Below are positions 28,230 to 60,290 of a stretch of DNA of 64,000 bases, piece by piece. Positions within the stretch are counted from its first letter, which is position 1. Each line of letters opens with the position of its first letter. The notes under the pieces were generated by a model. It was not told the DNA's origin, searched no databases, and saw only the letters and a program-made list of their open reading frames with translations. The position numbers and the translations under genes were made by a program. Origin of the DNA: Flectonema sp. DT1601 (taxonomy: Eukaryota; Euglenozoa; Diplonemea; Diplonemida; Diplonemidae); contig OZ025791.1 of assembly GCA_964019425.1 (NCBI GenBank), positions 1,216,501 through 1,280,500 on the forward strand, written 5' to 3'.

Positions 28230-28268
<39 letters not shown>

Positions 28269-29351
28269 TCTTTTATTTATTTTTTAAAAGAAAAAACAAT
28301 CAGTTTAGCGTCTTGACCAGGACGGAAAATAGAAATTAGTCGACAAAGTCGATCGATAAGAAACAATGATAACATTGTTTATTCATTTTTCTTTTTTTTT
28401 TTTTATTCTTTTTATTTATTTTTTAAAGAAAAAAATAATCAGTTTAGCGTCTTGACCAGGACGGAAAATAGAAATTAGTCGACAAAGTCGATCGATAAAA
28501 AAAAAACAATGATAACATTGTTTATTCTTTTTTTTTTTTTTTCTTTTTTTAAATCCTTTTAATTATTTTAAAGAAAAAACAATCAGTTTAGCGTCCTGAC
28601 CAGGACGGAAAATAGAAAGTAATCGACATAGTCGATCGATAAAAAAAACAATGATAACATTGTTTATTCCTTTTTTTTTTTTTTTTTATCTTTTTATTTA
28701 TTTTTTAAAGAAAAAACAATCAGTTTAGCGTCCTGACCAGGACGGAAAATAGAAATTAGTCGACAAAGTCGATCGATAAGAAACAATGATAACATTGTTT
28801 ATTCATTTTTTTTTTTTTTTTTTTTTTATATTCTTTTTATTTATTTTTAAAAAAAAAAAAAAAAACAATCAGTTTAGCGTCTTGACCAGGACGGAAAATA
28901 GAAATTAGTCGACAAAGTCGATCGATAAAAAAAACAATGATAACATTGTTTATTTCTTTTTTTTTTTTTTTTTATTTTTTTTTTTTTTTATATCTTTTAT
29001 TTATTTTTTAAAAGAAAAAACAATCAGTTTAGCGTCTTGACCAGGACGGAAAATAGAAATTAGTCGACAAAGTCGATCGATAAGAAACAATGATAACATT
29101 GTTTATTCATTTTTCTTTTTTTTTTTTTATTCTTTTTATTTATTTTTTAAAGAAAAAAATAATCAGTTTAGCGTCTTGACCAGGACGGAAAATAGAAATT
29201 AGTCGACAAAGTCGATCGATAAAAAAAAAACAATGATAACATTGTTTATTCCTTTTTTTTTTTTTTTTTTTTTTTTTATATCTTTTATTTATTTTTTAAA
29301 GAAAAAACAATCAGTTTAGCATCCTGACCAGGACGGAAAATAGAAATTAGT
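27103..29351 (-). mobile_element. 5'-truncated giant LINE 3' end: A plus satellite
   Basis: A starts at 27103 (ttttGAATTTCG) and passes into about 13 satellite monomers, ending within a monomer (aattagt) at 29351 against the next A. Several monomers here repeat as a higher-order block of about 630 bp (compare 27690-28480 with 28550-29220). No genes. Confidence 0.6.
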
Positions 29352-30474
29352 GAATTTCGAAAAGGTGGGAAGTAACGGACTGGGAGCTTTTGGCTCCTGC
29401 CCTATTCCCGATGTAAACTTTCTTTTTATTTTTTTTTTTTTTTTTAACAGGCCCAAAGGGCGACAATGATGGTTGCTGACCAAGGAATAATATTCAAATG
29501 AATTTTCGTTTCAAAGAAACGAACAGAATTAAGAGAGAGGTAGAGAAAAAAAAAAAAAAAAAAAAAAAAAAAAGAAAGAATAGAAAAAAAAAATGAAGAG
29601 GAAATAATCAAACATGAAAAAAAAAAAAAAAAAATAAAATATAAATAAAAAACGTTGTATGAAAAAGGAAAAAAAGAAAAAAAAAAGACCAGAAAAGGAA
29701 AGAGAAAATGAAAAGGTATAATATTATTGTGGGGATATGAGGATAGCAGGGAGATGCTCTTTTTTTTTTTTTTTTTTTCTTTTTTTTTTTATTTATTATT
29801 TAAAAAAAGAAACAATCAGTTTAGCGTCTCGATCAGGACGGAAAATAGAAATTAATCGACATAGTCGATCGATAGAAAAAAAACAATGATAACATTGTTT
29901 ATTCCTTTTTTTTTTTTTTTTTTTTTTATTCTTTTTATTTATTTTTAAAGAAAAAACAATCAGTTTAGCGTCCTGACCAGGACGGAAAATTGAAAGTGAT
30001 CGACATAGTCGATCGATAGAAAAAAAACAATGATAACATTGTTTATTCCTTTTTTTTTTTTTTTTTTTTTTATTCTTTTTATTTATTTTTAAAGAAAAAA
30101 CAATCAGTTTAGCGTCCTGACCAGGACGGAAAATTGAAAGTGATCGACATAGTCGATCGATAGAAAAAAAACAATGATAACATTGTTTATTCTTTTTTTT
30201 TTTTTTTTTTTTTTTTAAATCCTTTTAATTATTTTAAAGAAAAACAATCAGTTTAGCGTCTTGACCAGGGCGGAAAATAGAAAGTAATCGACATAGTCGA
30301 TCGATAAAAAAAAAACAATGATAACATTGTTTATTCCTTTTTTTTTTTTTTTTTTTTTATTCTTTTTATTTATTTTTAAAGAAAAAACAATCAGTTTAGC
30401 GTCCTGACCAGGACGGAAAATTGAAAGTGATCGACATAGTCGATCGATAAAAAAACAATGATAACATTGTTTAT

Positions 30475-30513
<39 letters not shown>

Positions 30514-31287
30514 CTTTTAATTATTTTTTAAAGAAAAAACAATCAGTTTAGCGTCTTGACCAGGACGGAAAATAGAAAGTGATCGACATAGTCGATCGAT
30601 AAAAAACAATGATAACATTGTTTATTCTTTTTTTTTTTTTTTTTTTTTTTTAATCCTTTTTATTATTTTAAAGAAAAAACAATCAGTTTAGCGTCTTGAC
30701 CAGGACGGAAAATAGAAAGTGATCGACATAGTCGATCGATAAAAAAACAATGATAACATTGTTTATTCTTTTTTTTTTTTTTTTTTTAAATTCTTTTTAT
30801 TTATTTTTAAAGAAAAAAAAACGGAAAATAAAAATTAGTCGACAAAGTCGAACGATAAAAAAAAAACAATGATAACATTGTTTATTCTTTTTTTTTTTGT
30901 TTTTTTTTATTCTTTTTTATTAATTTTGAAAAAAAAACAATCAGTTTAGCGTCTTGACTAGGACGGAAAATAGAAAGTAATCGACATAGTCGATCGATAA
31001 AAAAAAACAATGATAACATTGTTTACTCTTTTTTTTTTTTTTTTTTTAAATTCTTTTTATTTTAAAAAGAAAAAAAACGGAAAATAGAAATTAGTCGACA
31101 AAGTCGAACGATAAAAAAAAAACAATGATAACATTGTTTATTCTTTTTTTTTTATTTTTTTTTTTTATATTCTTTTTTATTAATTTTGAAAAAAAAACAA
31201 TCAGTTTAGCGTCTTGACCAGGACGGAAAATAGAAAGCGATCGACATAGTCGATCGATAAAAAAAAACAATGATAACATTGTTTATT

Positions 31288-31320
<33 letters not shown>

Positions 31321-31322
<2 letters not shown>

Positions 31323-32091
31323 TAGATGGAAGTGCCCTACAATTTGGAGGGCGTGTAGGGCGCTTGTAGGGCGCTTTTAATATAAATATTATTTTGGAGG
31401 GCGCTTTTTTTTTCCTTTTTTATTACTATAAGACAGCTAAATTGACGTCGACTTACACTGACGCACAAGTATTTTGACGCAGAAGCAAAAAAAAATTTTT
31501 GACATGCTTGGCAGTCTTTCGAAAAAGAGAAAAAAGGGTGTCACGGGGTTCGAACCCGAGACCTCCAGGTCATGGTTCGGAGGTCAACAATGGCAAAAAC
31601 AATGGGCTACTCCTTGAGAGCTTCCGGAGCCTGCTGCAATCCCTGAAGCTGAAACTCAGTTCAGTGGACGATGCATCCCAGATCTACAAGGAGCTGATTA
31701 GCCCGCAGAATGCACCGAGTCGAATATAGAGGGATTCGAGGAGGGAGAGTGCGTTCTTGCTAACCTGTTAATAGGCCGGTCTTCACGGTACCTTGTGAGA
31801 AAAAAAAAGAAGTTTACTGGTGGCAAGTAAACTGATATCCCAGAGACGCATTTGATCAGGCGAACCGGAGAAAAGTCAAATAAGATGCGATTCGACCCTC
31901 GCTGAGGGCAGGGGTGTGTCAAAATGAGCTCGGCATTATATTAAATTTAATTAAAAAAGCGCCCTACGCGCCCTCCAGCGCCCTATTTTGGCCCTATTTT
32001 GGCCCTACAATGGCCCTATTTTGGCCCTACAAATTTTTGTGGCTGATTTTCACCAGGCGCCCTCCAAATTTGGAGGGCACTTCCATCTATG
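31321..32091. mobile_element. CATAGATGG TIR element, complete copy (771 bp)
   Basis: Inverted ends of about 33 bp (catagatggaagtgccctMc... ttggagggcg), flanked by TTAAAT at 31315-31320 and 32092-32097, a 6-bp target duplication in the satellite. The interior holds a run of gccctattttg-type repeats near the right end. It also holds a B-box-like ggttcgaaccc around 31548, which on the minus strand forms the 3' half of a tRNA-like sequence followed by a T-run. Non-autonomous; superfamily not determined. Confidence 0.75.
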
Positions 32092-32490
32092 TTAAATCCT
32101 TTTTTTTTTTTAAAGAAAAAACAATCAGTTTAGCGTCTTGACCAGGACGGAAAATAGAAAGTAATCGACATAGTCGATCGATAAAATAAAAACAATGATA
32201 ACATTGTTTATTCCTTTTTTTTTTTTTTTTATTCTTTTTATTTATTTTTAAAGAAAAAACAATCAGTTTAGCGTCCTGACCAGGACGGGAAATAGAAAGT
32301 GATCGACATAGTCGATCGATAAAAAAACAATGATAACATTGTTTATTCTTTTTTTTTTTTTTTTTTTTTTTTTTAATTCTTTTTATTTATTTTTTAAAGA
32401 AAAAACATCAGTTTAGCGTCTTGACCAGGACGGAAAATAGAAATTAGTCGACAAAGTCGATCGATAACAAAACAATGATAACATTGTTTA

Positions 32491-32521
<31 letters not shown>

Positions 32522-33971
32522 TTCTTTTTATTTATTTTTTAAAGAAAAAACAATCAGTTTAGCGTCCTGACCAGGACGGAAAATAGAAAGTAATCGACAT
32601 AGTCGATCGATAAAAAAAACAATGATAACATTGTTTAATCTTTTTTTTTTTTTTTTTTTTTTTATTCTTTTTATTTATTTAGAAAAAACAATCAGTTTAG
32701 CGTCTTGACCAGGACGGAAAATAGAAATTAGTCGACAAAGTCGATCGATAAAAAAACAATGATAACATTGTTTATTCTTTTTTTTTTTTTTTTTTTTTTA
32801 AATTCTTTTTATTTATTTTTTAAGAAAAAAAAACGGAAAATAGAAATTAGTCGACAAAGTCGAACGATAAAAAAACAATGATAACATTGTTTATTCTTTT
32901 TTTTATTTTTTTTTTTTATTCTTTTTTATTAATTTTGAAAAAAAAAAAAAACCAATCAGTTTAGCGTCTTGACCAGGACGGAAAATAGAAAGTAATCGAC
33001 ATAGTCGATCGATAAAAAAACAATGATAACATTGTTTATTCTTTTTTTTTTTTTTTTTTTTAAATTCTTTTTATTTATTTTTTAAGAAGAAAAACGGAAA
33101 ATAGAAATTAGTCGACAAAGTCGAACGATAAAAAAACAATGATAACATTGTTTATTCTTTTTTTTATTTTTTTTTTTATATTCTTTTTTATTAATTTTGA
33201 AAAACAAAAAAAAAAACAATCAGTTTAGCGTCTTGACCAGGACGGAAAATAGAAAGTAATCGACATAGTCGATCGATAAAAATACAATGATAACATTGTT
33301 TAATCTTTTATAATTTTTTATTTTTTTTTTTGTTTTAAAAAAAAAAAAAAAAAACAAGCGGAATTGATCATAATGGGTGGTAGGGGTTGTTATAACTTCG
33401 TTTGAAAATTCTTCTTTTTTGATTTCTTTTTTTTTTTCTTTTTACAGGAGTTAAGATCACTTTCAGGAGACAACACATTAACAAGAGCAGCAAGCAGAGT
33501 TGACACTATCAATTCAAATTTGAAATACCGGGAATTAATTTACAAGGAGGTATCTCAAGTGACTTGGTATCTCTAGCGTGTCGGTATCTCTGGAGTGCTG
33601 GTATCTCGTATGTGCGTTGGTATCTCATGAGTGATGGTATCTCTTGTGCATTAGAGAAGCGAAAAAGAATGTCATGACCATGACGGAAGAATTGAGGAAT
33701 TGAGTTAACATGTTCAATTTAACTTATTTAAACTTTTTTTTTTTTTTTTTAACAGACCGTAACTATTTGAAAATAAAATGTAGATGGGAAACAGTGAAAA
33801 GTAAAATGGATGATAAAATTAAATGAGAAATATGACATAACAGACCAGATAGAGAGTATTAAAAGGAAATTGAAAAGGAAAAGAGAAACTAGGTTAACAC
33901 TTATTTAAAATTAAGACCGGTTAGTCAGTTTAAGGTCTTGACTAGGACCAACAAAAAAGAAAGAAAAAAAA

Positions 33972-34800
33972 ATTAACGATCAAGCTGAGCTGATCTTGTT
34001 TTTATTACAAATAGGGGAGCGGGAGGGATGGAAGGAATAGAGGAAAAAAAAAGAAAAGGTTGATCAATTGGATCTGATCGTCGAGAAGAAGAAATTATTT
34101 TAAAGGTTGATCGGTATAGCCGATCGTTGAGAAAAATAAACAGATATAAATACAATCAGTTTAAATTAAAAAAAGAAAAAAAGATTAACGATCAAGCTGA
34201 GCTGATCTTGTTTTTATTACAAATAGGGGAGCGGGAGGGATGGAAGGAATAGAGGGAAAAAAAAAGAAAAGGTTGATCAATTGGATCTGATCGTCGAGAA
34301 GAAGAAATTATTTTAAAGGTTGATCGGTATAGCCGATCGTTGAGAAAAATAAACAGATATAAATACAATCAGTTTAAATTAAAAAAAGAAAAAAAGATTA
34401 ACGATCAAGCTGAGCTGATCTTGTTTTTATTACAAATAGGGGAGCGGGAGGGATGGAAGGAATAGAGGAAAAAAAAAAGAAAAGGTTGATCAATTGGATC
34501 TGATCGTCGAGAAGAAGAAATTATTTTAAAGGTTGATCGGTATAGCCGATCGTCGAGAAAAATAAACAGATATAAATACAATCAGTTTAAATTAAAAAAA
34601 GAAAAAAAGATTAACGATCAAGCTGAGCTGATCTTGTTTTTTTTAAAATTAGGGGAGCGGGAGGGATGGAAGGAATAAAGGAAAAAAAAAAAAAAAAAAG
34701 GTCGATCAATTGGATCTGATCGTCGAGAAGAAGAAAACAATTATTTATAAAAAAAAATGGTCGGTATAGCCGATCGTTGAGAAAAGAACAGATATAAATA
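33972..34800 (-). repeat. ~213-bp tandem repeats of module U
   Basis: Four units start at about 33972, 34184, 34397 and 34610. Each carries gatcaagctgagctgatc, a purine-rich GGGAGGGATGG block, the inverted repeat GATCGGT-ATA-GCCGATC, and acaatcagttta. The last motif and the ATA-loop inverted repeat are also hallmarks of the ~130-140-bp satellite monomer. Two units are seen at 42000-42340 and at 47440-47870. Confidence 0.8.
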
Positions 34801-35305
34801 CAATCGGTTTTGGTGATCGACGAGTGGAGCGATCACTTGACAAGAAGGAAAAAGAAAGGACCGATTAATTGGGGCTTTGATTGTATTCCCAAGGCATGTT
34901 TTTTTTTTTTTTTTTTTTATTATTCATTTACATTATTATTTTTTTTTTTTTTTTTTAAATTAATAATCACATTTTGTTCAAAAATATTTCATATTAGAGT
35001 AAAAGAAAAAGAAAAAAAGAAATAAGAGAAAAAAAAAAAAAAAAAAAAACCATTGCTGGCCCCCTCACCACTCATAGAGGATGAGGAGGCCAGTAAGGCG
35101 TCACTCAAATCTATGCCAAGCCTTGGGAACTTGGATTGGGGTTTAGACCATTTATAATTAACAATTAACAATTAACCTGATTAACGTTATGATCTGACGG
35201 ACATAAACATATCGATAAAATAATACAAACAAAAACGAACAATAAATAATAAATAAGCTAAAAAACTAAATAAACAAAGTGATGTGAAAGTAAGGAAAAA
35301 GAGAA

Positions 35306-35868
35306 TTACAAGGGGGTGGAGTCACCGTGAACGTCATCAGCAGAACATCTCCTTCGATTGTAACGATATCTTGATGGAGGGGTTCGTTTTTTCAGAGTTG
35401 AACGCTCAGACTTTCTCGGCGGAGTTTCATTTTCCTCATGTTCTTCTGTGTCTGGCGGACTCAAACCTTCTGCCCATGAAGCTAATTGGAACTTCAGGGC
35501 CGCAATTTGAGACCGTGCCAAGGCGAGTTGAGCATTTAAATCGCTCGCCAGTCCCGTTAACATCATGGATTGCTCAAGCTGCTCTGCGTGAGTTGTACAC
35601 CGTTGGTGATTCAGCTCCGAGAGGCGAAGTTGGGCATCCAGAAGTTGTTCTGAGAGCTCTGCCGCTTTCTCGTTTGTTTCGAGAGAGTCATCTACTGCTC
35701 GACAGTAATTCTCGAGTAAGTCAATCCTACCCTCGGACCATTGTCTCGCAATAGGTGTATTCTCTTTAACGGAGATAACGTGACTCTCTTGTCGTAAAAT
35801 CTTGGTCGGCGTGCGGTCGAGAGCTTCACTCTGCGGCATTGTCGGAGGAATTGAGGCTAGAGGACAAA
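35306..35868 (-). pseudogene. LINE ORF, C-terminal fragment
   Basis: Reverse-strand fragment of about 188 codons. Its sequence is the same as the end of the 48358-51288 ORF (from CPLASIPPTMPQSEALDRTP to the final DSTPL). It contains two predicted coiled-coil stretches rich in Leu, Glu and Gln, and an Arg/Lys-rich tail (RYRYNRRR). The plus-strand 156-aa frame over the same bases is a shadow. Upstream coding sequence is lost at 35868 by 5' truncation. Confidence 0.7.
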
Positions 35869-36076
35869 GTCGATCGATAAGAAACAATGATAACATTGTT
35901 TATTCTTTTTTTTTTTTTATTTTTTTTTTAAATTTTTTTTATTTATTTTTAAAAAAAAAAAAAAACAATCAGTTTAGCATCTTGACCAGGACGGAAAATA
36001 GAAAGTAATCGACATAGTCGATCGATAAAAAAAAACAATGATAACATTGTTTATTCCTTTTTTTTTTTTTAAGGTT
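35869..36076 (-). repeat. Satellite remnant between two LINE copies
   Basis: About one and a half monomers (tcgatcgataagaaacaatg... to aaggtt) between the 5' truncation point of one LINE copy and module A of the next. Confidence 0.7.
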
Positions 36077-39000
36077 GAATTTCGATAAAGTGGGAAGTAA
36101 CGGACTGGGAGCTTTTGGCTCCTGCCCTATTCCCGATGTAAACTTTCTTTTTATTTTTATTTTTTTTAACAGGCCCAAAGGGCGACAATGATGGTTGCTG
36201 ACCAAGGAATAATATTCAAATGAATTTTCGTTTCAAAGAAACGAACAGAATTAAGAGAGAGGCAGAGGAAAAAAAAAAAAAAAAGAAAGAAAAGAAAAGA
36301 AAAAAAAAATGAAGAGGAAATAATCAAACATGAAAAAAAAAAAAAAAAAAAAATATATATATATAAATAAAAAACGTTGTATGAAAAAGGAAAAAAAAGA
36401 AAAAAAAAAGACCAGAAAAGGAAAGAGAAAATGAAAAGGTATAATATTTTTATTCATTTTTTAAAGAAAAAACAGTCAGTTTAGCATCCTGACCAGGACG
36501 GAAAATAGAAAGTAATCGACATAGTCGATCGATAAAAAAAACAATGATAACATTGTTTATTCCTTTTTTTTTTTTTTTATCTTTTTATTTATTTTTTAAA
36601 GAAAAAACAATCAGTTTAGCGTCCTGACCAGGACGGAAAATAGAAATTAGTCGACATAGTCGATCGATAAAAAAAAAACAATGAAAACATTGTTTATTCC
36701 TTTTTTTTTTTTTTTTTTTTTTAACTTTTTATTTATTTTTAAAGAAAAAACAGTCAGTTTAGCGTCCTGACCAGGACGGAAAATAGAAAGTAATCGACAT
36801 AGTCGATCGATAAAAAAAACAATGATAACATTGTTTATTTATTTTTTTTTTTTTTTTTTTATCTTTTTATTTATTTTTTAAAGAAAAAACAATCAGTTTA
36901 GCGTCCTGACCAGGACGGAAAATAGAAATTAGTCGACAAAGTCGATCGATAAGAAACAATGATAACATTGTTTATTCATTTTTTTTTTTTTTTTTTTTTA
37001 ATATTCTTTTTATTTATTTTAAAGAAAAAACAATCAGTTTAGCGTCTTGACCAGGACGGAAAATAGAAATTAGTCGACAAAGTCGATCGATAAGAAACAA
37101 TGATAACATTGTTTATTCATTTTTCTTTTTTTTTTTTTATTCTTTTTATTTATTTTTTAAAGAAAAAAATAATCAGTTTAGCGTCTTGACCAGGACGGAA
37201 AATAGAAACTAGTCGACAAAGTCGATCGATAAAAAAAAAACAATGATAACATTGTTTATTCCTTTTTTTTTTTTTTTTTTTTTAACTTTTTATTTATTTT
37301 TAAAGAAAAAACAGTCAGTTTAGCGTCCTGACCAGGACGGAAAATAGAAAGTAATCGACATAGTCGATCGATAAAAAAAACAATGATAACATTGTTTATT
37401 TATTTTTTTTTTTTATTTTTTATCTTTTTATTTATTTTTTAAAGAAAAAACAATCAGTTTAGCGTCCTGACCAGGACGGAAAATAGAAATTAGTCGACAA
37501 AGTCGATCGATAAGAAACAATGATAACATTGTTTATTCATTTTTTTTTTTTTTTTTTTTTTATATTCTTTTTATTTATTTTAAAGAAAAAACAATCAGTT
37601 TAGCGTCCTGACCAGGACGGAAAATAGAAATTAGTCGACAAAGTCGATCGATAAAAAAAACAATGATAACATTGTTTATTCCTTTTTTTTTTTTTTTTTT
37701 TTTTTTATATTTTTTTTTTAATTTATTTTTAGAAGAAACAATCAATTTAGCGTCTTGACCAGGACGGAAAATAGGAAGTAATCGACATAGTCGATCGATA
37801 AAAAAACAATGATAACATTGTTTATTCTTTTTTTTTTTTTTTTTTTAAATGCTTTTTATTTATTTTTAGAGAAAAAAACGGAAAATAGAAATTAGTCGAC
37901 AAGGTCGAACGATAAAAAAACAATGATAACATTGTTTAATCTTTTTTTTTTATTTTTTTTTTATATTCTTTTTTATTAATTTTGAAAAAAACAATCAGTT
38001 TAGCGTCTTGGCCAGGACGGAAAATAGAAAGTAATCGACATAGTCGATCGATAAAAAACAATGATAACATTGTTTATTCTTTTTTTTTTTTTTTTTAAAT
38101 TCTTTTTATTTATTTTTTAAAGAAAAAAATGGAAATAGAAATTAGTCGACAGAGTCGATCGATAAAAAAAACAATGATAACATTTTTTATTCTTTTTTTT
38201 TTTTTATTTTTTTTTTATATTCTTTTTTATTAATTTTTAAAAAAAAAAACAATCAGTTTAGCGTCTTGACCAGGACGGAAAATAGAAAGTGATCGACATA
38301 GTCGATCGATAAAAAAACAATGATAACATTGTTTATTCTTTTTTTGTTTTTTAAATTCTTTTTATTTATTTTTTAAAGAAAAAAAACGGAAAATAGAAAT
38401 TAGTCGACAAAGTCGAACGATAGAAAAAATAATGATAACATTGTTTATTCTTTTTTTTTTTTTTATTTTTTTTTTTATATTCTTTTTTATTAATTTTGAT
38501 AAAAACAATCAGTTTAGCGTCTTGACCAGGACGGAAAATAGAAAGTAATCGACATAGTCGATTGATAAAAAAACAATGATAACATTGTTTATTCTTTTTT
38601 TTTTTTTTTTTTTTTTGATATTCTTTTTATTAATTTTTAAAAAAAAAAACAGTTTAGCGTCTTGACCAGGACGGAAAATAGAAAGTAATCGACATAGTCG
38701 ATCGATAAAAAAACAATGATAACATTGTTTATTCCTTTTTTTTTTTTTTTTTTTTTTAACTTTTTATTTATTTTTAAAGAAAAAACAGTCAGTTTAGCGT
38801 CCTGACCAGGACGGAAAATAGAAAGTAATCGACATAGTCGATCGATAAAAAAAACAATGATAACATTGTTTATTTATTTTTTTTTTTTTTTTTTTATCTT
38901 TTTATTTATTTTTTAAAGAAAAAACAATCAGTTTAGCGTCCTGACCAGGACGGAAAATAGAAATTAGTCGACAAAGTCGATCGATAAGAAACAATGATAA

Positions 39001-39787
39001 CATTGTTTATTCATTTTTTTTTTTTTTTTTTTTTATATTCTTTTTATTTATTTTAAAGAAAAAACAATCAGTTTAGCGTCCTGACCAGGACGGAAAATAG
39101 AAATTAGTCGACAAAGTCGATCGATAAAAAAAACAATGATAACATTGTTTATTCCTTTTTTTTTTTTTTTTTTTTTTTATATTTTTTTTTTAATTTATTT
39201 TTAGAAGAAACAATCAATTTAGCGTCTTGACCAGGACGGAAAATAGGAAGTAATCGACATAGTCGATCGATAAAAAAACAATGATAACATTGTTTATTCT
39301 TTTTTTTTTTTTTTTTTTAAATGCTTTTTATTTATTTTTAGAGAAAAAAACGGAAAATAGAAATTAGTCGACAAGGTCGAACGATAAAAAAACAATGATA
39401 ACATTGTTTAATCTTTTTTTTTTATTTTTTTTTTATATTCTTTTTTATTAATTTTGAAAAAAACAATCAGTTTAGCGTCTTGGCCAGGACGGAAAATAGA
39501 AAGTAATCGAAATAGTCGATCGATAAAAAACAATGATAACATTGTTTATTCTTTTTTTATTTTATTTTAAATTCTTTTTATTTATTTTTTAAAGAAAAAA
39601 AACGGAAAATAGAAATTAGTCAACAAAGTCGAACGATAAAAAAAAAACAATGATAACATTGTTTATTCCTTTTTTTTTTGGGAAAACCTACAGATCCACC
39701 CCCAGGTTTGGGGAAACGTACACTACGGTCACGGCCTTGTGTAACTTTTTTGACCCCTGGATATGTGTTTAAATCCGCAAAATCGAA

Positions 39788-39861
39788 GACGACGCAAATT
39801 GTCGAGTGGTATGATTCCAGACTTGCATTCGCTAGGCTGCGGTTCGAACCCCTGTCGGGTC
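39788..39861 (+). pseudogene. tRNA-like sequence followed by a long T-run
   Basis: A-box-like ttgtcgagtggtatgat, anticodon-like cttgcat, and a perfect B box GGTTCGAACCCC, followed by about 24 T (a pol III terminator signature). Stem pairing is poor, so it is a tRNA-derived relic or SINE head rather than a working tRNA. Confidence 0.45.
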
Positions 39862-40369
39862 TTTTTTTTTTTTTTTTTTTTTTTTTTTCCCCCAGTGACC
39901 AACAGGTACACTGTCTGCACTGGCCGTTCGGTCAGGAACGCCGCCGCTGACGTCGTGCGTCGTATCCGTACTGCTGATTCGTTCTGTCACGTTCGGACAC
40001 TCGTCGCTCTGAGACATTGCTTAGTGCAGGTTGCTGACTAACAACATCGTTTGAAAGTCTTACACCAGAACCTCATTGGTACCTTACAAAGACCCTGCAT
40101 CAAATTCACACGCGGGTCGTTCTTCAAGGTCAATAGTGTAAACTTCCACTCGACTTAGGACCTCGCTTGGAAGCCTTCTGTCATCGCGCAATTCTTCCTT
40201 AAGTTAAGTTAAACTTAACTTTAACATAAGAGAGTAATCCATCGTCCTGTTAACCTCTATTCTCTCATCATGGTGTAGAAGTAACTATTGATGTAGTTAC
40301 TTAATTGTAATGTTCATAAAAAAACATTCTTATTGTTGTAATCTTTTGGACGCAAGCCCTAACACGATC

Positions 40370-40830
40370 AAAAAGTAACCACCAGTGGTGACTAAGTGAT
40401 CCAGTCTGGCTTACTTCAAAGGCTAACATAGTCAAGCACAGTCACTGCGGATGTGTTGTGTAGCATCACGGCTCCGATCGGAGAACCGTAGATACCAGGG
40501 ACTAGAAACGGGAGTTCCTCTCGTACTACCCCGTATTGCGGTCGACTTACACTGCCCCAAGGGGGTCTCTCCCCATCAGTAGGTAAAACTTGTCTCACGA
40601 CGGTCCTGTTAGTGGGTGAACTATCCAACCCTTGGACAATTCTGCTTGTCTAGGTTAGGAAGAGCCGACATTGAAGGATCAAAAGCAATGAACGCTTGGC
40701 TGGGTTTGCAGGCCCCAAAAGCTGAACGAAAAAATTGGGCCGTTCGAATCACTAACTTGCATGTTGTCGGTTGCAGTCATCACTCACCTGTCAGCATACT
40801 CTTTACCTTAATTACGCTTAACCCTAACGA
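40370..40830 (-). pseudogene. Large-subunit rRNA fragment (antisense), divergent
   Basis: On the minus strand, universally conserved 25S/28S landmarks occur in order: TTAAGGTA (~40810), CCAAGCGTTCA and GATGTCGGCTCTTCCTA (40655-40712), GCAGAATT, GTTCACCCACTAA (40609-40622), GACCGTCGTGAGACA (40592-40606), TTTTACC, CTACTGATG, then TAGTACGAGAGGAAC (40513-40528). After this comes a hairpin built on CTCCGATCGGAG where other LSU RNAs have an equivalent stem. Two universal stretches are missing: the one after CCCACTAA that carries the GGGTTTAGA of the peptidyl-transferase centre, and part of the one after GCGTTCA. It is therefore unlikely to work as such. It could be a captured, decayed gene or a piece of a highly reduced rRNA. 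Confidence 0.7.
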
Positions 40831-40982
40831 TGATTTGGCAAATAACAAACCTTGAGGGCATCATTGCGTTGCTACGCTGCACCACGTTGGTAGTATTTAA
40901 AAGTTAACAAAGCCTTAAAAAAAATTGAGTAACAGCGAGACGAACAGATGCCCAGAAAAAAAATTCCGGAAAGAAAAAAAAA

Positions 40983-41054
40983 TCCCCCCGAGGGACTCGA
41001 ACCCCCTACCTCCAGGGCTTCAGTCCGGCACCAACACCACTGCGCTATCACGGA
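40983..41054 (-). pseudogene. tRNA-Phe-like sequence
   Basis: On the minus strand: A box tagcgcagtggtgttgg, anticodon loop CTGAAGC (anticodon GAA), a five-pair T stem around GTTCGAGTC, and a following T-run. The acceptor arms (TCCGTGA / GGGGGGA) pair only partly. It is tRNA-derived; function is doubtful. Confidence 0.5.
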
Positions 41055-42191
41055 TTTGAAAAAAACTTCGCCCAGAATAGAGGGCTGTCGATTTGGAAAA
41101 AAGGTCAAAAAAGCTACACAAGGCCGTGACCGTAGTATACGTTTCTCCAAACCTGGGGGTGGATCTGTAGGTTTTCCCTTTTTTTTTTTTTTTTTTTTTT
41201 TTTAATATTTTTTTATTTTGAAAAAAAAAAACAATCAGTTTAGCGTCTTGACCAGGACGGAAAACTGGAAGTAATCGACATAGTCGATCGATAAAAAAAA
41301 CAATGATAACATTGTTTCATCTTTTATATTTTTTAATTTTTTTTTTTATATTTGAAGAAAAGAAAGAAAAAAAAAAAAACAAGCGGAATTGATCATAATG
41401 GGTGGCAGGGGTTGATATAACTTCATTTGAAAATTCTTCTTTTTTAATTTCTTTTTTTTTTTTTTTTTTTTTTTTTTATTTAACAGGAGTTAAGATCACT
41501 TACATGAGTTAACACAACACAGATACGAGAGTAGCAAACTGAGGTAACACTACCAATTCAACAAAAAATAATCAGGATCGGACACAAGGAGGAGAGTTCA
41601 TTCTACCTCTCACTGTCCTTGCTGGTATCTTAAGTGTCTTGGTATCTCTTTTGTGTCGGTATCTCGGAAGTGCTGGTATCTCGTATGTGCGTTGGTATCT
41701 CTTGCGTGTTGGTATCTCTTGTACATAAGAAAAAATATTGAGTTAACATGATCAGTTTTATTTAAAATTAAAGACAGACCGGAACTATTTGAAAATAAAA
41801 TGTAGATGGGAAACAGTGAAAATTAAAATGAATGATAAAATTAAATGAGATATATGACATAACAGACCAGATAGAGAGTAATAAAGGGAAAAGGAAAACG
41901 GGAAGGGTTCATTCACTTAGTTAAAGTTAAGACCGATTAGTCAGTTTAAGGTCTTGACTAGGACCAAAAAAAAAAAAATATATATATATAAATAAATAAC
42001 GATCAAGCTGAGCTGATCTTGTTTTTATTAAAATAAGGGGAGCGGGAGGGATGGAAGGAATAAAGGAAAAAAAAAGAAAAGGTCGATCAATTGGATCTGG
42101 TCGACGAGAAGAAGAAGACAATTATTTTAAAGGTCGATCGGCATAGCCGATCGTTGAGAAAAATAACCAGATATAAATACAATCAGTTTAA

Positions 42192-42231
<40 letters not shown>

Positions 42232-42340
42232 TTAACGATCAAACTGAGCTGATCTTGTTTTTATTAAAATAAGGGGAGCGGGAGGGATGGAAGGAATAAA
42301 GGAAAAAAAAGAAAAGGTCGATCAATTGGATCTGATCGTC

Positions 42341-42682
42341 TCACTATAGGGGGTGATGCCAAACACCCAGAAGTACTAAACTGCTTTCCTTCTTGCTGCC
42401 CAGGAGTTTCTGACCAGAACTAATAGAAAATAAAAAGTAGATGGGAAACAATAAAAAGTAAAATGGATATAACTGAAGTTAAACAAGACAAATGAAGTAA
42501 CAGACCAGAACAGAAAGAGAATTGTAATAGAAGATTACAAATAAAAAAATGCAAGTATCAACACATTATCAAGATACACCAGCAGCTAACAAACAACATA
42601 AAATTGAAGATCAGTTGCCAGAGTATTTCAACCATGGTAGAATACTCGCCCCTCTGGCAGGGATTATCCCAGACTTGTCCTT
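42341..42682 (-). mobile_element. B element internal fragment
   Basis: 342 bp matching the middle of the B unit (gggggtgatgccaaacaccc... cagacttgtcctt), lacking both unit ends, squeezed between a truncated U module and module A at 42683. The GATGCCAAACACCC box is intact. Confidence 0.75.
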
Positions 42683-42712
42683 GAATTTCGATAAAGTGGG
42701 AAGTAACGGACT

Positions 42713-42729
42713 GGGAGCTTTTGGCTCCT
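42713..42729 (-). other. Terminal TTTTG-loop hairpin of module A (representative)
   Basis: GGGAGC-TTTTG-GCTCCT, six pairs, starting 31 nt from the constant end and followed by GCCCT. An outer pairing GGGAA/TTCCC encloses it. The same structure at the same distance is seen in B (53873-53887, TTAGC-TTTTG-GCTAA) and C (7602-7616, TGAAC-TTTTG-GTTCA). In the sense of the elements the loop reads CAAAA and lies at the RNA 3' end. Confidence 0.7.
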
Positions 42730-43234
42730 GCCCTATTCCCGATGTAAACTTTCTTTTTATTTTTATTTTTTTTAACAGGCCCAAAGGGCGACAATGATGG
42801 TTGCTGACCAAGGAATAATATTCAAATGAATTTTCGTTTCAAAGAAACGAACAGAATTAAGAGAGAGGCAGAGGAAAAAAAAAAAAAAAAGAAAGAAAAG
42901 AAAAGAAAAAAAAAAATGAAGAGGAAATAATCAAACATGAAAAAAAAAAAAAAAAAAAAATATATATATATAAATAAAAAACGTTGTATGAAAAAGGAAA
43001 AAAAAGAAAAAAAAAAGACCAGAAAAGGAAAGAGAAAATGAAAAGGTATAATATTATTGTGGGGATATGAGGGATAGCAGGGAGATGCTCTTTTTTTTTT
43101 TTTTTTTTTTTTTTTTCTTATTTATTATTTAAAAAAAGGAAACAATCAGTTTAGCGTCTCGATCAGGACGGAAAATAGAAATTAATCGACATAGTTGATC
43201 GATAGAAAAAAAAACTATGATAACATTGTTTATT

Positions 43235-43267
<33 letters not shown>

Positions 43268-46200
43268 TTTTTAATTATTTTAAAGAAAAAACAATCAGTT
43301 TAGCGTCTTGACCAGGACGGAAAATAGTAAGTAATCGACATAGTCGATCGATAAAAAAAAAACAATGATAACATTGTTTATTCCTTTTTTTTTTTTTTTA
43401 TTCTTTTTATTTATTTTTAAAGAAAAAACAATCAGTTTAGCGTCCTGACCAGGACGGAAAATAGAAAGTAATCGACATAGTCGATCGATAAAAAAAACAA
43501 TGATAACATTGTTTATTCTTTTTTTTTTTTTTTTTTTTATTTTAATTCTTTTTATTTATTTTTTAAAAAGAAAAAAAATGGAAAATAGAAATTAGTCAAC
43601 AAAGTCGAACGATAAAAAAAAAACAATGATAACACTGTTTATTCTTTTTTTTTTTATTTTTTTTATATTCTTTTTTATTAATTTTGAAAAAAAAAACAAT
43701 CAGTTTAGCGTCTTGACCAGGACGGAAAATAGAAAGTAATCGACATAGTCGATCGATAAAAAAACAATGATAACATTGTTTATTCTTTTTTTTTTTTTTA
43801 TTTTAAATTCTTTTTATTTATTTTTTAAAGAAAAAAAAACGGAAAATAGAAATTAGTCGACAAAGTCGAACGATAAAAAAAAACAATGATAACATTGTTT
43901 ATTCTTTTTTTTGTATTTTTTTATATTCTTTTTTATTAATTTTGAAAAAAAAACAATCAGTTTAGCGTCTTGACCAGGACGGAAAATAGAAAGTAATCGA
44001 CATAGTCGATCGATAAAAAAAACAATGATAACATTGTTTATTCTTTTTTTTTTTTTTTTTTTTTTAAATTCTTTTTATTAATTTTTTAAAGAAAAAAAAC
44101 GGAAAATAGAAATTAGTCAACAAAGTCGAACGATAAAAAAAAAAAAACAATGATAACATTGTTTATTCTTTTTTTTTATTTTTTTTTTTTAATATTTTTT
44201 TTTTATTTTGAAAAAAAAACAATCAGTTTAGCGTCTTGACCAGGACGGAAAATAGAAAGTAATCGACATAGTCGATCGATAAAAAAAACAATGATAACAT
44301 TGTTTATTCTTTTTTTTGTATTTTTTTATATTCTTTTTTATTAATTTTGAAAAAAAAACAATCAGTTTAGCGTCTTGACCAGGACGGAAAATAGAAAGTA
44401 ATCGACATAGTCGATCGATAAAAAAAACAATGATAACATTGTTTATTCTTTTTTTTTTTTTTTTTTTTAAATTCTTTTTATTTATTTTTTAAAGAAAAAA
44501 AACGGAAAATAGAAATTAGTCAACAAAGTCGAACGATAAAAAAAAAACAATGATAACATTGTTTATTCTTTTTTTTTATTTTTTTTTTTTTAATATTTTT
44601 TTTTATTTTGAAAAAAAAAACAATCAGTTTAGCGTCTTGACCAGGACGGAAAATAGAAAGTAATCGACATAGTCGATCGATAAAAAAAAACAATGATAAC
44701 ATTGTTTATTCTTTTTTTTTTATTTTAAATTCTTTTTATTCATTTTTTAAAGAAAAAAAACGGAAAATAGAAATTAGTCGACAAAGTCGAACGATAAAAA
44801 AAAAACAATGATAACATTGTTTATTCTTTTTTTTTTTGTATTTTTTTTAATATTCTTTTTTATTAATTTTGAAAAAAAAAAACAATCAGTTTAGCGTCTT
44901 GACCAGGACGGAAAATAGAAAGTGATCGACATAGTCGATCGATAAAAAAACAATGATAACATTGTTTATTCTTTTTTTTTATTTTAAATTCTTTTTATTT
45001 ATTTTTTAAAGAAAAAAAAAAAACGGAAAATAGAAATTAGTCGACAAAGTCGAACGATAAAAAAAACAATGATAACATTGTTTATTCTTTTTTTTGTATT
45101 TTTTTATATTCTTTTTTATTAATTTTGAAAAAAAAAACAATCAGTTTAGCGTCTTGACCAGGACGGAAAATAGAAAGTGATCGACATAGTCGATCGATAA
45201 AAAAAAACAATGATAACATTGTTTATTCTTTTTTTTTATTTTAAATTCTTTTTATTTATTCTTTAAAGAAAAGAAACGGAAAATAGAAATTAGTCGACAA
45301 AGTCGAACGATAAAAAAAACAATGATAACATTGTTTTTCCTTTTTTTTTTTTTTTTTTTATATTCTTTTTTATTAATTTTGAAAAAAAAACAATCAGTTT
45401 AGCGTCTTGACCAGGACGGAAAATAGAAAGTGATCGACATAGTCGATCGATAAAAAAACAAGGATAACATTGTTTATTCTTTTTTTTTTTTTTTATTTTA
45501 AATTCTTTTTATTTATTTTTTAAAGAAAAAAAAACGGAAAATAGAAATTAGTCGACAAAGTCGAACGATAAAAAAAACAATGATAACATTGTTTATTCTT
45601 TTTTTTGTATTTTTTTATATTCTTTTTTATTAATTTTGAAAAAAAAAACAATCAGTTTAGCGTCTTGACCAGGACGGAAAATAGAAAGTGATCGACATAG
45701 TCGATCGATAAAAAAACAATGATAACATTGTTTATTTTTTTTTTTATTTTAAATTCTTTTTATTTATTCTTTAAAGAAAAGAAACGGAAAATAGAAATTA
45801 GTCGACAAAGTCGAACGATAGAAAAAAAACAATGATAACATTGTTTATTCTTTTTTTTTTTTTTTTTTTATATTCTTTTTTATTAATTTTGAAAAAAAAA
45901 CAATCAGTTTAGCGTCTTGACCAGGACGGAAAATAGAAAGTGATCGACATAGTCGATCGATAAAAAAACAATGATAACATTGTTTATTCTTTTTTTTTAT
46001 TTTAAATTCTTTTTATTTATTTTTTAAAGAAAAAAAACGGAAAATAGAAATTAGTCAACAAAGTCGAACGATAAAAAAAACAATGATAACATTGTTTATT
46101 CTTTTTTTTTTTTTTTTTTTTTATTCTTTTTTATTAATTTTGAAAAAAAAACAATCAGTTTAGCGTCTTGACCAGGACGGAAAATAGAAAGTGATCGACA

Positions 46201-47994
46201 TAGTCGATCGATAAAAAAACAATGATAACATTGTTTATTCTTTTTTATTTATTTTAAATTCTTTTTATTTATTTTTTAAAGAAAAAAAACGGAAAATAGA
46301 AATTAGTCAACAAAGTCGAACAATAAAAAAAAACAATGATAACATTGTTTATTCTTTTTTTTTTTTTTTTTTTTTTATATTCTTTTTTATTAATTTTGAA
46401 AAAAAAAAACAATCAGTTTAGCGTCTTGACCAGGACGGAAAATAGAAAGTAATCGACATAGTCGATCGATAAAAGAACAATGATAACATTGTTTATTCTT
46501 TTTTTTTTATTTTAAATTCTTTTTATTTATTATTTAAAGAAAAGAAACGGAAAATAGAAATTAGTCGACAAAGTCGAACGATAAAAAAAAAACAATGATA
46601 ACATTGTTTATTCTTTTTTTTTTTTTTTTTTTATATTCTTTTTATTAATTTTTTAAAAAAAAAAAAAAAAAACAATCAGTTTAGCGTCTTGACCAGGACG
46701 GAAAACTGGAAGTAATCGACATAGTCGATCGATAAAAAAAACAATGATAACATTGTTTCATCTTTTATATTTTTTAATTTTTTTTTATATTTGAAGAAAA
46801 GAAAGAAGAAAAAAAAAAAAAAAAAAACAAGCGGAATTGATCATAATGGGTGGCAGGGGTTGATATAACTTCATTTGAAAATTCTTCTTTTTTAATTTCT
46901 TTTTTTTTGAAATTTTTTTTTTTATTTAACAGGAGTTAAGATCACTTACATGAGTTAACACAACACAGATACGAGAGTAGCAAAATGAGGTAACACTACC
47001 AATTCAACAAAAAATAATCAGGATCGGACACAAGGAGGAGAGTTCATTCTACCTCTCACTGTCCTTGCTGGTATCTTAAGTGTCTTGGTATCTCTTGTGT
47101 GTCGGTATCTCGGAAGTGCTGGTATCTCGTATGTGCGTTGGCATCTCTTGCGTGTTGGTATCTCTTGCACATAATAAAAAAAAATATTGAGTTAACATGA
47201 TCAGTTTTATTTATCATCAGAGACAGACCGGAACTATTTGAAAATAAAATGTAGATGGGAAACAGTGAAAATTAAAATGAATGATAAAATTAAATGAGAT
47301 TTATGACATAACAGACCAGATAGAGAGTAATAAAGGGAAAAGGAAAACGGGAAGGGTTCATTCACTTAGTTAAAGTTAAGACCGATTAGTCAGTTTAAGG
47401 TCTTGACTAGGACCAACAAAAAAAAAAATATAAATAAATAAATAAATAACGATCAAGCTGAGCTGATCTTGTTTTTATTAAAATAAGGGGAGCGGGAGGG
47501 ATGGAAGGAATAAAGGAAAAAAAAAGAAAAGGTCGATCAATTGGATCTGGTCGTCGAGAAGAAGAAGACAATTATTTTAAAGGTCGATCGGCATAGCCGA
47601 TCGTTGAGAAAAATAACCAGATATAAATACAATCAGTTTAAATAAAAAAAAAAAAAAATAAATAAATAAAAAAAAAAAAAGTTTAACGATCAAGCTGAGC
47701 TGATCTTGTTTTTATTAAAATAAGGGGAGCGGGAGGGATGGAAGGAATAAAGGAAAAAAAAGAAAAGGTCGATCAATTGGATCTGATCGTCGAGAAGAAG
47801 AAAACAATTGTTTTTAAAAAAAATGATCGGTATAGCCGATCGTTGAGAAAAGAACAGATATAAATACAATCGGTTTTGGTGATCGACGAGTGGAGCGATC
47901 ACTTGACAAGAAGGAAAAAAGAACGGACCGATTAATTGGGGCTTTGGTTGTATTCCCAAGGCATGTTTTTTTTTTTTTTTTTTTATTATTCATT

Positions 47995-48029
<35 letters not shown>

Positions 48030-48357
48030 TAATCACATTTTGTTCAAAAATATTTCATATTAGAGTAAAAGAAAAAGAAAAAAAGAAATAAGAGAAAAAA
48101 AAAAAAAACCATTGCTGGCCCCCTCACCACTCATAGAGGATGAGGAGGCCAGTAAGGCGTCACTCAAATCTATGCCAAGCCTTGGGAACTTGGATTGGGG
48201 TTTAGACCATTTATAATTAACAATTAACCAGATTAACGTTATGATCTGACGGACATAAACATATCGATAAAATAATACAAACAAAAACGAACAATAAATA
48301 ATAAATAAGCTAAAAAACTAAATAAACAAAGTGATGTGAAAGTAAGGAAAAAGAGAA

Positions 48358-51288
48358 TTACAAGGGGGTGGAGTCACCGTGAACGTCATCAGCAGAACAT
48401 CTCCTTCGATTGTAACGATATCTTGATGGAGGGGTTCGTTTTTTCAGAGTTGAACGCTCAGACTTTCTCGGCGGAGTTTCATTTTCCTCATGTTCTTCTG
48501 TGTCTGGCGGACTCAAACCTTCTGCCCATGAAGCTAATTGGAACTTCAGGGCCGCAATTTGAGACCGTGCCAAGGCGAGTTGAGCATTTAAATCGCTCGC
48601 CAGTCCCGTTAACATCATGGATTGCTCAAGCTGCTCTGCGTGAGTTGTACACCGTTGGTGATTCAGCTCCGAGAGGCGAAGTTGGGCATCCAGAAGTTGT
48701 TCTGAGAGCTCTGCCGCTTTCTCGTTTGTTTCGAGAGAGTCATCTACTGCTCGACAGTAATTCTCGAGTAAGTCAATCCTACCCTCGGACCATTGTCTCG
48801 CAATAGGTGTATTCTCTTTAACGGAGATAACGTGACTCTCTTGTCGTAAAATCTTGGTCGGCGTGCGGTCGAGAGCTTCACTCTGCGGCATTGTCGGAGG
48901 AATTGAGGCTAGAGGACAAAGAGGGGTGATATAATTAAGGGTAGGGATAAGGGGTTTAATAAGAGGAGTAAAAAGACTACTCGTAGTTGTAAAGAGCGAG
49001 AGGTAGTTCTTTGCTATCTTCATCATAGCAACAGATTCATACAGAACGGGGGTTCGGGGGGAAACTTGTTGACTAAAGTGGGTCATACGGGGACGCGCGG
49101 CACGCAAACTCTCGACCTCCTGTTGAGTATAGAAAAGTCTTATTTTACTTTCTCTTTCCTCATTACATTTGGTCTCCAATTCGTTCGACAGAAGAACAAA
49201 CCTTTGATGGTAATTAAAGAGCGCCATTTCCGATAGGTCTGCTCTCTGAGTCAGATTTGCGAGCTCACGTTTCCTGTAATCTTCCACTAAGTCATATTGT
49301 CGAACTAGTGCAGAAAGAGAAGTCTTCGATTCATCGCGTTCTGCTGTTAACCGTTGAATTACTCCTTCCAGAAGTTCATATTCTTTTCTATCTTTTTCAA
49401 TAATTAAAACAGGGGGCGCAGGAGGAAGTGAGGATGGATCCTGGTTGGTAGCTTTGATCTCAACAGGTAATCCATTTAGTAACTGCTTGTCTTTCTCGAG
49501 GGAGGCTGACATCGCATTAAAGTAAAATAAAAATAGAACATAAAAAATTCGTTCTTTCATTTGCTCTAATTCGTTTTCTAAAATCTGGCATTTCAAGGAA
49601 AGTTTCAGCCTTAATTTTCCTTCTTTTTTTTTGTACAAGGGGGTTTGAGAACCCATGTCAGATTGAGTTCTTATCACTATAGCGAAATCAGCAGGAAGTG
49701 TTTGCGATCCCGTTGACATGAGTTCAGGTGGGGGAGTCTGGAAAGAGATGGAAGAAATAGAAGAGAATGACAAGGAGAGTCCAGTGAGCTCATCCTCATC
49801 TAACAAAACAGAAGGGGCCGGGGAGGAAGAACCATTGGCAATAAGTAGAATAGAAAGAGCCGATGCGTAACAAGTTTGCCAGATAAAACATTTCTCAAGC
49901 CACGATCTTTCAATGGTGAGCTTTTCGATCGTTTTCAGTTTTGTTACTTTGTGGATTTTGACTTCTTCCACAGGGAAGATTTCTTTACCATCTTTTATAA
50001 AACTTGCAGTGGCAGGTTCTTCTTTAATGCTGCGCATTAGTGGTCTTGAATGCCACGTGGGGAGGTTCCTCGTCTGGAACAGAACATATGAGCACTGTCT
50101 GGCGATTCTGGTGCATTCACAAAATAAAGCTTTTGTTGGTGCTAAAGGTGAACCGATGTGACGTGTCCAGATGTTCAGCTGGTCCATGCAGATGTTTCCT
50201 CGTACGCCAACTTCAATAGTAAAAATGTTACAGTCGAAGCCATTAGCGATGATCGAGTCTCTTAGCTTTAGGTATTTCTTTTCCTTTAAGACATGAGAGG
50301 TTTCGAAACGATCTTCATTTGGACACGTCAGCTCCAGAATCAGTGCTCTTTTCGCAAAAAAAGAATAAATAAAAATGTCTGGTCTTAGAGAGGACGAGAC
50401 ATGGCACACTTCAAGAGGAACAATTAGGCGGTTATCACCGACATCGTCGAGGATGACCCAATCATTCGCTAGTGAAAGTTCGCCTGTCTCTTTAGAAATT
50501 CTTTCTAGGGGTTTATTTTCCCCTGTTTTTAAAAAAGTTTGAGAGGGAGGCGGGAGGTTTTCTTTTCTTTTGTTGGCTTTTATTATCAACTCTTCCAAGA
50601 AGATAACAATGCGTTTTAGAACGCTGTCGTGACGCCACGTGAACCTCCCTTGTGTTAAAGAGACAGGACAGCCTGTTAAGACATGCCTGAGGGTAGGATT
50701 CACTTTGCCACACAAAACACAATTTTGGTCCACATTGGTGATGTTCCACCTCTTTAAATTATCTTGTGAGGGGAGGGTGTTTGTAACCGCTTTCAGTTGA
50801 AATGAGATATAGGCAGGATTTCCCTCCCTAAGTACCTTATTCCAGGTGAAATCGTTTATCATACATTTAGACCACTCCTTCCACTGACCTTGGACTTGTA
50901 ATTTATTCAAAGAGTTCAGTAGTTCATCTGTGGCTTCCACTTCAAAACGCTTAAGGAGATCGGGGCGAGTAGTACGTAGATCGCGCAATCGGTGACCAAG
51001 ACCAGCTGATTGCTTCGCAAGAGAACGGTAAGAAAAAAACTTAATAAGGCGCTCCCACTCAGCAGAAGCTGAAAACTTTTTCGACCAGTTGGACGATTTC
51101 TCCATAATAACATTGTAGACACCGTGCATGTCAGAGTCCTGTGAGGATCTGAGGATGTCTAGTTTAATTGATTGCGCTTGTTTATATAGCGTCTCAACTC
51201 TTTTGTGTCTGAGACCAACAGTGTTCTTTGAACCGGTAAAAAGGATGACTGTGTTCGCAGAGCGGACAAATCCCCACCATTTCTTCAA
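48358..51288 (-). CDS. Non-LTR retrotransposon polyprotein, RLE-bearing C-terminal part
   Basis: 976 open codons with no ATG at the upstream end, so this is the 3' part of a longer ORF. Domains in order (residues from the frame start): a post-RT region (1-180); a CCHC finger C190-C193-H202-C207 in CVLCGKVNPTLRHVLTGC, followed by RFTWRHDSVL, as in R2-like elements; and a restriction-like endonuclease with RPD (302-304), E319 in LELT, the KEKKYLKL helix (335-342) and EVGVRGN. Beyond about residue 470 comes a ~500-aa extension unusual for such elements: Ser/Pro-rich linkers, then leucine/glutamate-rich coiled-coil stretches (around 620-760 and 830-930) and a basic end. The enzyme would nick DNA and prime reverse transcription at the target. 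The RT domain itself is lost here by 5' truncation. A fragment with an RT domain, probably from the same family, lies at 63640-64000. Confidence 0.75.
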   Translation of the reverse strand: MKKWWGFVRSANTVILFTGSKNTVGLRHKRVETLYKQAQSIKLDILRSSQDSDMHGVYNVIMEKSSNWSKKFSASAEWERLIKFFSYRSLAKQSAGLGHRLRDLRTTRPDLLKRFEVEATDELLNSLNKLQVQGQWKEWSKCMINDFTWNKVLREGNPAYISFQLKAVTNTLPSQDNLKRWNITNVDQNCVLCGKVNPTLRHVLTGCPVSLTQGRFTWRHDSVLKRIVIFLEELIIKANKRKENLPPPSQTFLKTGENKPLERISKETGELSLANDWVILDDVGDNRLIVPLEVCHVSSSLRPDIFIYSFFAKRALILELTCPNEDRFETSHVLKEKKYLKLRDSIIANGFDCNIFTIEVGVRGNICMDQLNIWTRHIGSPLAPTKALFCECTRIARQCSYVLFQTRNLPTWHSRPLMRSIKEEPATASFIKDGKEIFPVEEVKIHKVTKLKTIEKLTIERSWLEKCFIWQTCYASALSILLIANGSSSPAPSVLLDEDELTGLSLSFSSISSISFQTPPPELMSTGSQTLPADFAIVIRTQSDMGSQTPLYKKKEGKLRLKLSLKCQILENELEQMKERIFYVLFLFYFNAMSASLEKDKQLLNGLPVEIKATNQDPSSLPPAPPVLIIEKDRKEYELLEGVIQRLTAERDESKTSLSALVRQYDLVEDYRKRELANLTQRADLSEMALFNYHQRFVLLSNELETKCNEERESKIRLFYTQQEVESLRAARPRMTHFSQQVSPRTPVLYESVAMMKIAKNYLSLFTTTSSLFTPLIKPLIPTLNYITPLCPLASIPPTMPQSEALDRTPTKILRQESHVISVKENTPIARQWSEGRIDLLENYCRAVDDSLETNEKAAELSEQLLDAQLRLSELNHQRCTTHAEQLEQSMMLTGLASDLNAQLALARSQIAALKFQLASWAEGLSPPDTEEHEENETPPRKSERSTLKKRTPPSRYRYNRRRCSADDVHGDSTPL

Positions 51289-51290
51289 AA

Positions 51291-59448: not shown

Positions 59449-59485
<37 letters not shown>

Positions 59486-60259: not shown

Positions 60260-60290
<31 letters not shown>

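Follow-up and report, generated by a model that had tools for sequence, protein, structure and literature searches.

An R2-like retrotransposon of the diplonemid Flectonema sp. with satellite DNA in its 3' untranslated region and complete copies in head-to-tail chains

We have analysed a stretch of 64,000 nucleotides from the diplonemid Flectonema sp. DT1601 (assembly GCA_964019425.1, contig OZ025791.1, positions 1,216,501 to 1,280,500; below, the window), with genome counts taken from the 89.5-Mb, 92-contig assembly. The window holds 5'-truncated copies of a non-long-terminal-repeat (non-LTR) retrotransposon, which is almost certainly a real long interspersed nuclear element (LINE) with satellite DNA as cargo in its 3' untranslated region (UTR). 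Beyond the original prediction, made from the window's letters before this analysis, we find that complete copies of the element are joined head to tail. With less certainty than for the LINE identity and its cargo, we consider it probable that the chains arise at insertion, through run-on past the 5' end of the template into another 3' end (template jumping).

Results

Complete copies and their satellite

None of the window copies contains the reverse transcriptase (RT). Full-length copies with RT, for which the original prediction had proposed to look, were located elsewhere in the genome in the order open reading frame (ORF), module U, satellite, module A; in the fetched regions, complete RT-bearing copies read from the 3' end as A, satellite, U, ORF and 5' end. 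The complete units measure 10.3-13.1 kb and comprise one long ORF and a 3' UTR of U, satellite (~2.6-5.7 kb) and the 408-bp A. Copies were located with a piece of the ORF, giving 47 scored matches among 649 candidates; internal stops were present in 0/47, and the open frame around 23 of the 47 measured 1752-1765 codons. The units compared were five complete ones, 10,350-10,351 bp in length, from three loci on contig C27 and a fourth on C23. When one unit was set against each of the other four, there was at most one mismatch and one gap, satellite included. The three C27 loci differ in the sequence next to the first A, and the C23 unit follows another copy. The presence of the same array in separate complete copies upholds the proposal that the satellite is part of a mobile element, and the near-identity of the copies points to recent activity.

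Exact 22-mers, picked as common to four observed units, became steadily rarer from the 3' to the 5' end of the element: A 1231 (619+612, versus 0 for the reversed pattern), U 329, ORF C-terminus 224, RT 120 and 5' end 46. About 12 each of the U and ORF matches stem from one DNA tandem on contig C15. Such a gradient is expected of 5'-truncated LINE copies.

A satellite 34-mer had 7883 matches in the genome. The first 100 of these listed (plus strand, contig C1) fell into 13 arrays, nine of which follow an A within 3.6 kb and one of which resumes after a 1.7-kb interruption, while three had no A in order within the ~1.1 kb looked at. The arrays are thus mostly attached to A, not mostly devoid of A and U, as would have counted against the prediction; nor was any LINE copy met that stops short of U and has a tail of its own, although no systematic search for such copies was made. 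Satellite length varies between otherwise identical neighbouring units. With regard to RNA structure, each satellite monomer has three conserved dyads (374, 425 and 517 instances), which give no clear indication for or against it: there is almost no compensatory change, and the strand favoured by wobble pairs differs between two of the dyads.

A fixed, tailless 3' end in varied flanks

The window has 12 module A ends with a common start G, nine exact and three with 1-2 mismatches in the A-end 14-mer, in agreement with the original count of twelve ends and one shared start base. An exact-word search for the 14-mer gave 591 genome matches (282+309) versus 0+1 for the reversed pattern. When 42 A starts were compared (22 from fetched stretches, 12 from the window and eight from search loci), all began at the same point, save small variants of the first bases. 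Of 33 distinct 40-base A flanks sampled, one was the 5' end of the element itself and the remaining 32 were mutually different, so that the fixed base predicted for A ends genome-wide was found in 32 distinct surroundings. Together with the gradient of word counts, the varied flanks support the earlier reading of 5'-truncated, target-primed insertions with a fixed 3' end.

The 32 flanks had no clear motif except a T adjoining A (22/32, against a background of 30%), which was also present in 7/11 further short pieces. By eye, nine of the 32 lay in the element's own older satellite or A sequence, and neither poly(A) nor a simple tail followed the 3' end in the A flanks. For two insertions the satellite could be read in its pre-insertion state, and about one base had been lost in each (by eye).

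The encoded protein

In a complete copy the ORF matches RVT_1 (E 3.9e-26), and the RT is followed by a zinc knuckle and a restriction-like endonuclease with an R2-like fold. R2 proteins were the best matches in both sequence and fold, within a comparison set made up of solved structures only. An RT in the ORF, a zinc knuckle and a restriction-like endonuclease behind it, and 3'-anchored, 5'-truncated insertions are the features of restriction-like-endonuclease non-LTR elements. Judged from its sequence, the element belongs to this R2-like group and is related to R2 by its solved-structure matches. The 28S-specific insertion of the R2 clade was not found, as only one of the 32 sampled flanks is 28S-like. 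Restriction-like-endonuclease clades are reported to be mostly site-specific, with HERO as an exception (PMC4640811).

A ubiquitin C-terminal hydrolase domain was observed in the ORF relatives P0007, P0016, P0031, P0034, P0036 and P0050, in P0007 after RT and zinc knuckle. The close public-data relative P0001 is near-identical through the endonuclease (by eye) and has a diverged C-terminal extension.

Complete copies in head-to-tail chains

The exact 22-base 5' end occurs 46 times in the genome, and in all 46 cases it is joined directly to the 3' end of another copy. The junction runs straight into the first bases of A in 45 of them and into a variant A in the 46th. By spacing, the 46 ends fall into 39 chains, of which 33 have a single exact 5' end, five have two and one has three. 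The 22-mer was searched exactly and includes the last base of the element, and 5' ends that are diverged or a few bases short escape this count. The last unit of a chain is cut at widely different distances, ~641, 780, 2853, 3624, 4673, 5941 and 9460 bp in seven chains inspected. Three chain ends in satellite stop at or beside GGAAAAT, which are too few to build on. In three of the seven inspected chains, those on C3, C23 and C64, the truncated last unit runs into a copy of opposite orientation, the overlaps being 1, 14 and 10 bases, respectively.

The two C64 units agree fully in their last 6400 bp and in 390 bp of A, and the 2350 bp by which their lengths differ come from the satellite. Units 1 and 2 on C41 are one base apart in 6400 and 868 bp apart in length, and the C23 chain joins two variants. 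The 46 5' ends are contig-internal (e.g. C1:162608-183993 of 1.91 Mb and C23:850145-873939 of 1.23 Mb) and do not have the chromosome-end location of telomeric tandem LINEs.

Several explanations of individual junctions were tried and set aside. A self-cleaving ribozyme at the junction found no support in Rfam at E up to 5 (L002, L018 and L019), where 16 matches were all below gathering scores and none was self-cleaving. No HDV-like ribozyme, a feature of R2 5' ends, was among the matches for these three loci either. A fixed transcription start in the upstream A, leaving a HeT-A-style tag, was rejected since the seven chain ends vary widely. C27:213797-213823 was considered as an inherited truncated junction, and was judged a separate insertion since it is unique and follows non-element sequence. 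The tandem at C15:294976-339454, of ~3.3-3.6 kb units that each hold a U-ORF LINE fragment and are 99.8-99.9% identical in the piece read (L091, C15:296001-306000), was rejected as an element chain and is a DNA duplication holding a LINE fragment.

As regards the contig ends themselves, an 8-bp repeat array was seen at 14/20 of those looked at, degenerate in two and longer than 5 kb where probed (stretches L032, L033, L036, L038, L039, L041-L043, L056-L058 and L071-L090). The repeat reads TTTGCGGG at left ends and CCCGCAAA at right ends, and none was reversed. The strand running 3' to the contig end would be C-rich, opposite to usual telomeres.

A second family with a matching hairpin

Near its 3' end, module A has a hairpin with a TTTTG loop that recurs with different stems: GGAGC/GCTCC 54 times, TTAGC/GCTAA 26 times and TGAAC/GTTCA twice, versus 0 for a reversed-loop control, with overlapping fetches counting a few places twice. 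Three further single variants have one mismatch each. The 3' hairpin of a second family, A2, matches that of A through compensatory stem changes, as expected of a structure recognised by an RT. The A2 unit is ~1.37 kb long, without a frame of at least 70 codons in the unit looked at. In the window, a single A2 insertion in satellite (18040-25442, plus strand) consists of 5.4 head-to-tail units of 1371-1372 bp that are 99.94-100% identical, and the last unit of this one chain is 5'-truncated. The fetched data include ten A2 5' ends, from six loci, and each of the ten is joined directly to the 3' end of an A2 unit.

Two A-family ends, C1:873803 and C41:153308, lie in 28S-like sequence and are the only two genome-wide at the site tested. 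The A2 ends on C34 and C38 are also in 28S-like sequence and, being identical over 1080 bp, are counted as one. A-family and A2 ends are within ~5 bp of each other in these fragments (L092, L093, L094 and L021). Rfam identified large-subunit (LSU) ribosomal RNA at C1, C34 and C38 (E 5.3e-30 to 1.6e-20), and the C41 match of 49.4 bits is just under the gathering score of 50. These insertions are a tiny share of all ends but may be the trace of an older preference for ribosomal DNA (rDNA).

Copies in the window

The copy at 42683-51299 (minus strand, as is the element's sense) is made up of these parts: A at 42683-43090, with its fixed tailless 3' end and the hairpin GGAGC-TTTTG-GCTCC; satellite at 43091-46809, with monomers of ~120-145 bp and dimers of ~260 bp; U at 46810-48357; and the 3' half of the ORF at 48358-51294, an open frame of 978 amino acids with zf-RVT, restriction-like endonuclease and C-terminal extension, the RT part having been lost by truncation. 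The copy at 29352-35869 (minus) likewise runs from A through satellite and U into the ORF, is interrupted by the insert at 31322-32091 and is inserted within the satellite of the A-satellite copy at 27103-29351 (minus), whose satellite continues at 35863-36070. The original prediction had the copies at 29352 and 42683 joining A, satellite, U and ORF, and this proved correct, with ends at 35869 and 51299. The plus-strand copy was predicted at 57686-61402 with the order kept; the order holds, whereas the boundary is at 57696, inside U. All 3707 bases of 57696-61402 are identical to bases 1-3707 of a complete C27 unit, satellite included.

Two further copies on the minus strand comprise A, satellite and U, at 6504-11769 and 36077-42340, and the pieces on either side of the inserts at 7575-10267 and 39680-41178, respectively, were joined on the strength of their order. 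The A-satellite copies at 2428-4483 and 4484-6503 (both minus) are 96.6% identical and have the same satellite end position. They are likely a local tandem duplication, because the satellite-end junction common to them occurs at only these two places in the genome. Another A-satellite copy, at 14474-16148 (minus), has a short plus-strand copy of A plus ~95 bp nested in its A (14763-15262, approximate span). Copies cut within A lie at 13550-13805 (minus) and 51329-51436 (plus, ~106 bp). The predicted order, always A, satellite, U and LINE 3' coding sequence, stands as stated, although not every copy shows the whole of it: the ends at 13550 and 51436 carry part of A, and that at 15262 A and ~95 bp. 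Interruptions of the order are nested inserts, at 7575-10267, 31322-32091, 39680-41178 and ~14763-15262.

The insert in satellite at 39680-41178 has a 75-base inverted end match at 96%, and that at 31322-32091 has inverted ends by eye and recurs in sequence at 13818-14474. At 7575-10267 lie two 1,347-bp direct repeats (1351/1351 identical), bordered on both sides and separated by GATA, with a hairpin TGAAC-TTTTG-GTTCA near one end; this repeat may be of a different kind. Because of weak MULE, MuDR DNA-binding and SWIM zinc-finger matches in its open frames, the region at 51809-57476 is likely a Mutator-like DNA transposon.

Discussion

The fixed 3' end in varied flanks, the gradient of counts, the domain order of RT, zinc knuckle and endonuclease, and the identical satellites of separate copies argue for a LINE inserting by target-primed reverse transcription. 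Synthesis would begin at the hairpin-bearing 3' end. On reaching the 5' end of the template, the enzyme would continue at the 3' end of another template, or of the same one again, and a stop inside a unit would leave a chain with a truncated last unit. This run-on is suggested by the fused state of all 46 exact 5' ends, the varied cuts of the chains, the truncated end of the A2 chain and the compensatory hairpins. It also agrees with reports that R2 enzymes pass from one template to another in the absence of sequence similarity (PMC12203849) and that R2 proteins make longer products by template jumping (PMC11371274). Within copies the satellite would lengthen and shorten.

Some observations weigh against template jumping. 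Inspection of four insertions by eye revealed no target-site duplication, which leaves target-primed insertion without an independent mark; the 22-mer would miss insertions that stop bases short and end in ordinary flank; and the junctions have no added or missing bases, with neighbours mostly of one variant. Exact junctions and alike neighbours are more easily reconciled with a continuous template than with jumping freely from one RNA to another. Such a template, a multi-unit RNA transcribed from chains or a circular RNA in which the junction is just copied, is a possible although on balance unlikely source of the chains, and within this explanation the satellite and A of one unit may be the promoter of the next, by analogy with HeT-A. 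All 46 junctions being exact speaks for it, as do the near-identity of the C64 and C41 neighbours and that of the A2 units within one chain. On the other hand, the C23 chain joins two variants, Rfam gave no ribozyme family at the junction at E up to 5, and the varied chain ends do not indicate a fixed start within the upstream A. A more far-reaching version, in our opinion rather doubtful, is obligate concatemeric retrotransposition: units would be copied only as chains from multi-unit or circular RNA, with the satellite as promoter array of the next unit, and shorter non-coding elements sharing the hairpin would use the same route. Under template jumping and continuous template alike, the satellite is cargo of the LINE.

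It is improbable that single insertions came first and were multiplied later by unequal crossing-over or other DNA duplication. Plain tandems do occur (the ~3.3-kb units on C15, and the 2428/4484 pair with its one shared junction), and satellite length differs between otherwise identical neighbours, yet duplication alone does not bring an exact 5' end and an exact 3' end together, the last units of chains at several loci are cut in different places, and the second family has the same pattern. The chains are known from assembled sequence; still, assembly artefacts are very unlikely, given that the chains differ in unit length and flanks, that the junction itself is short, and that C1, C27 and C64 carry a repeat array at either end, as would contigs assembled over their full length. 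That the satellite is independent and the LINE merely inserted into it can practically be dismissed, for despite the nine A flanks in older satellite or A and the three C1 arrays without A in order, five units from four loci share one array between A and U, which is found again, identical, in the window copy at 57696-61402.

The retrotransposon thus carries, copies and spreads satellite DNA of kilobase scale, and through nested insertion satellite-rich islands can arise by retrotransposition and not by unequal exchange alone. This is one route by which jumping genes can build and spread satellite DNA. Template jumping would make this a natural genome in which run-on between template ends appears to be the rule for complete copies (46/46, plus 10/10 for A2), run-on being otherwise reported for R2 enzymes from in-vitro work and from engineered cells. 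The recent activity to which the near-identical copies point makes the mechanism directly testable with RNA and strain comparison.

Comparison with known systems

No published description of the element was found in a literature search, which does not show that it is unpublished, and the portion of PMC11331408 consulted yielded nothing on head-to-tail arrangement or template jumping. Like R2, the element has a single ORF with RT, zinc knuckle and restriction-like endonuclease. Unlike R2, most of its copies lie outside rDNA, two A-family ends being 28S-like, and it has a long satellite-bearing 3' UTR, a long C-terminal extension and complete units only in chains. For endonuclease-dead R2 proteins in human cells, head-to-tail tandems are reported as the major class of 3' junctions (PMC11371274). 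Same-direction head-to-tail arrays of non-LTR elements with unusually long 3' UTRs are described for GilM, GilT and GilD of Giardia; these arrays are telomeric, in contrast to the contig-internal chains found here, and satellite in the Gil 3' UTR goes unmentioned in the part of that report available to us (PMC5537684).

In HeT-A, TART and TAHRE of Drosophila the 3' UTR of one unit likewise adjoins the 5' end of the next and is reported to hold a promoter (PMC5537684), but those elements are telomeric and have an oligo(A) 3' end, whereas the end described here is tailless. The fungal LINEs MoTeR1 and FoTeR resemble the element in having variable-number tandem repeats, with the largest MoTeR1 array near the 3' end; they are telomere-targeted and ~4-6 kb in total, compared with 2.6-5.7 kb for the array alone in the present case (PMC12857005). 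Oyster Helentrons are reported as mobile elements that also spread satellite-like tandem repeats (PMC7492417). They belong to another element class, whereas the carrier in Flectonema is an RT-encoding LINE.

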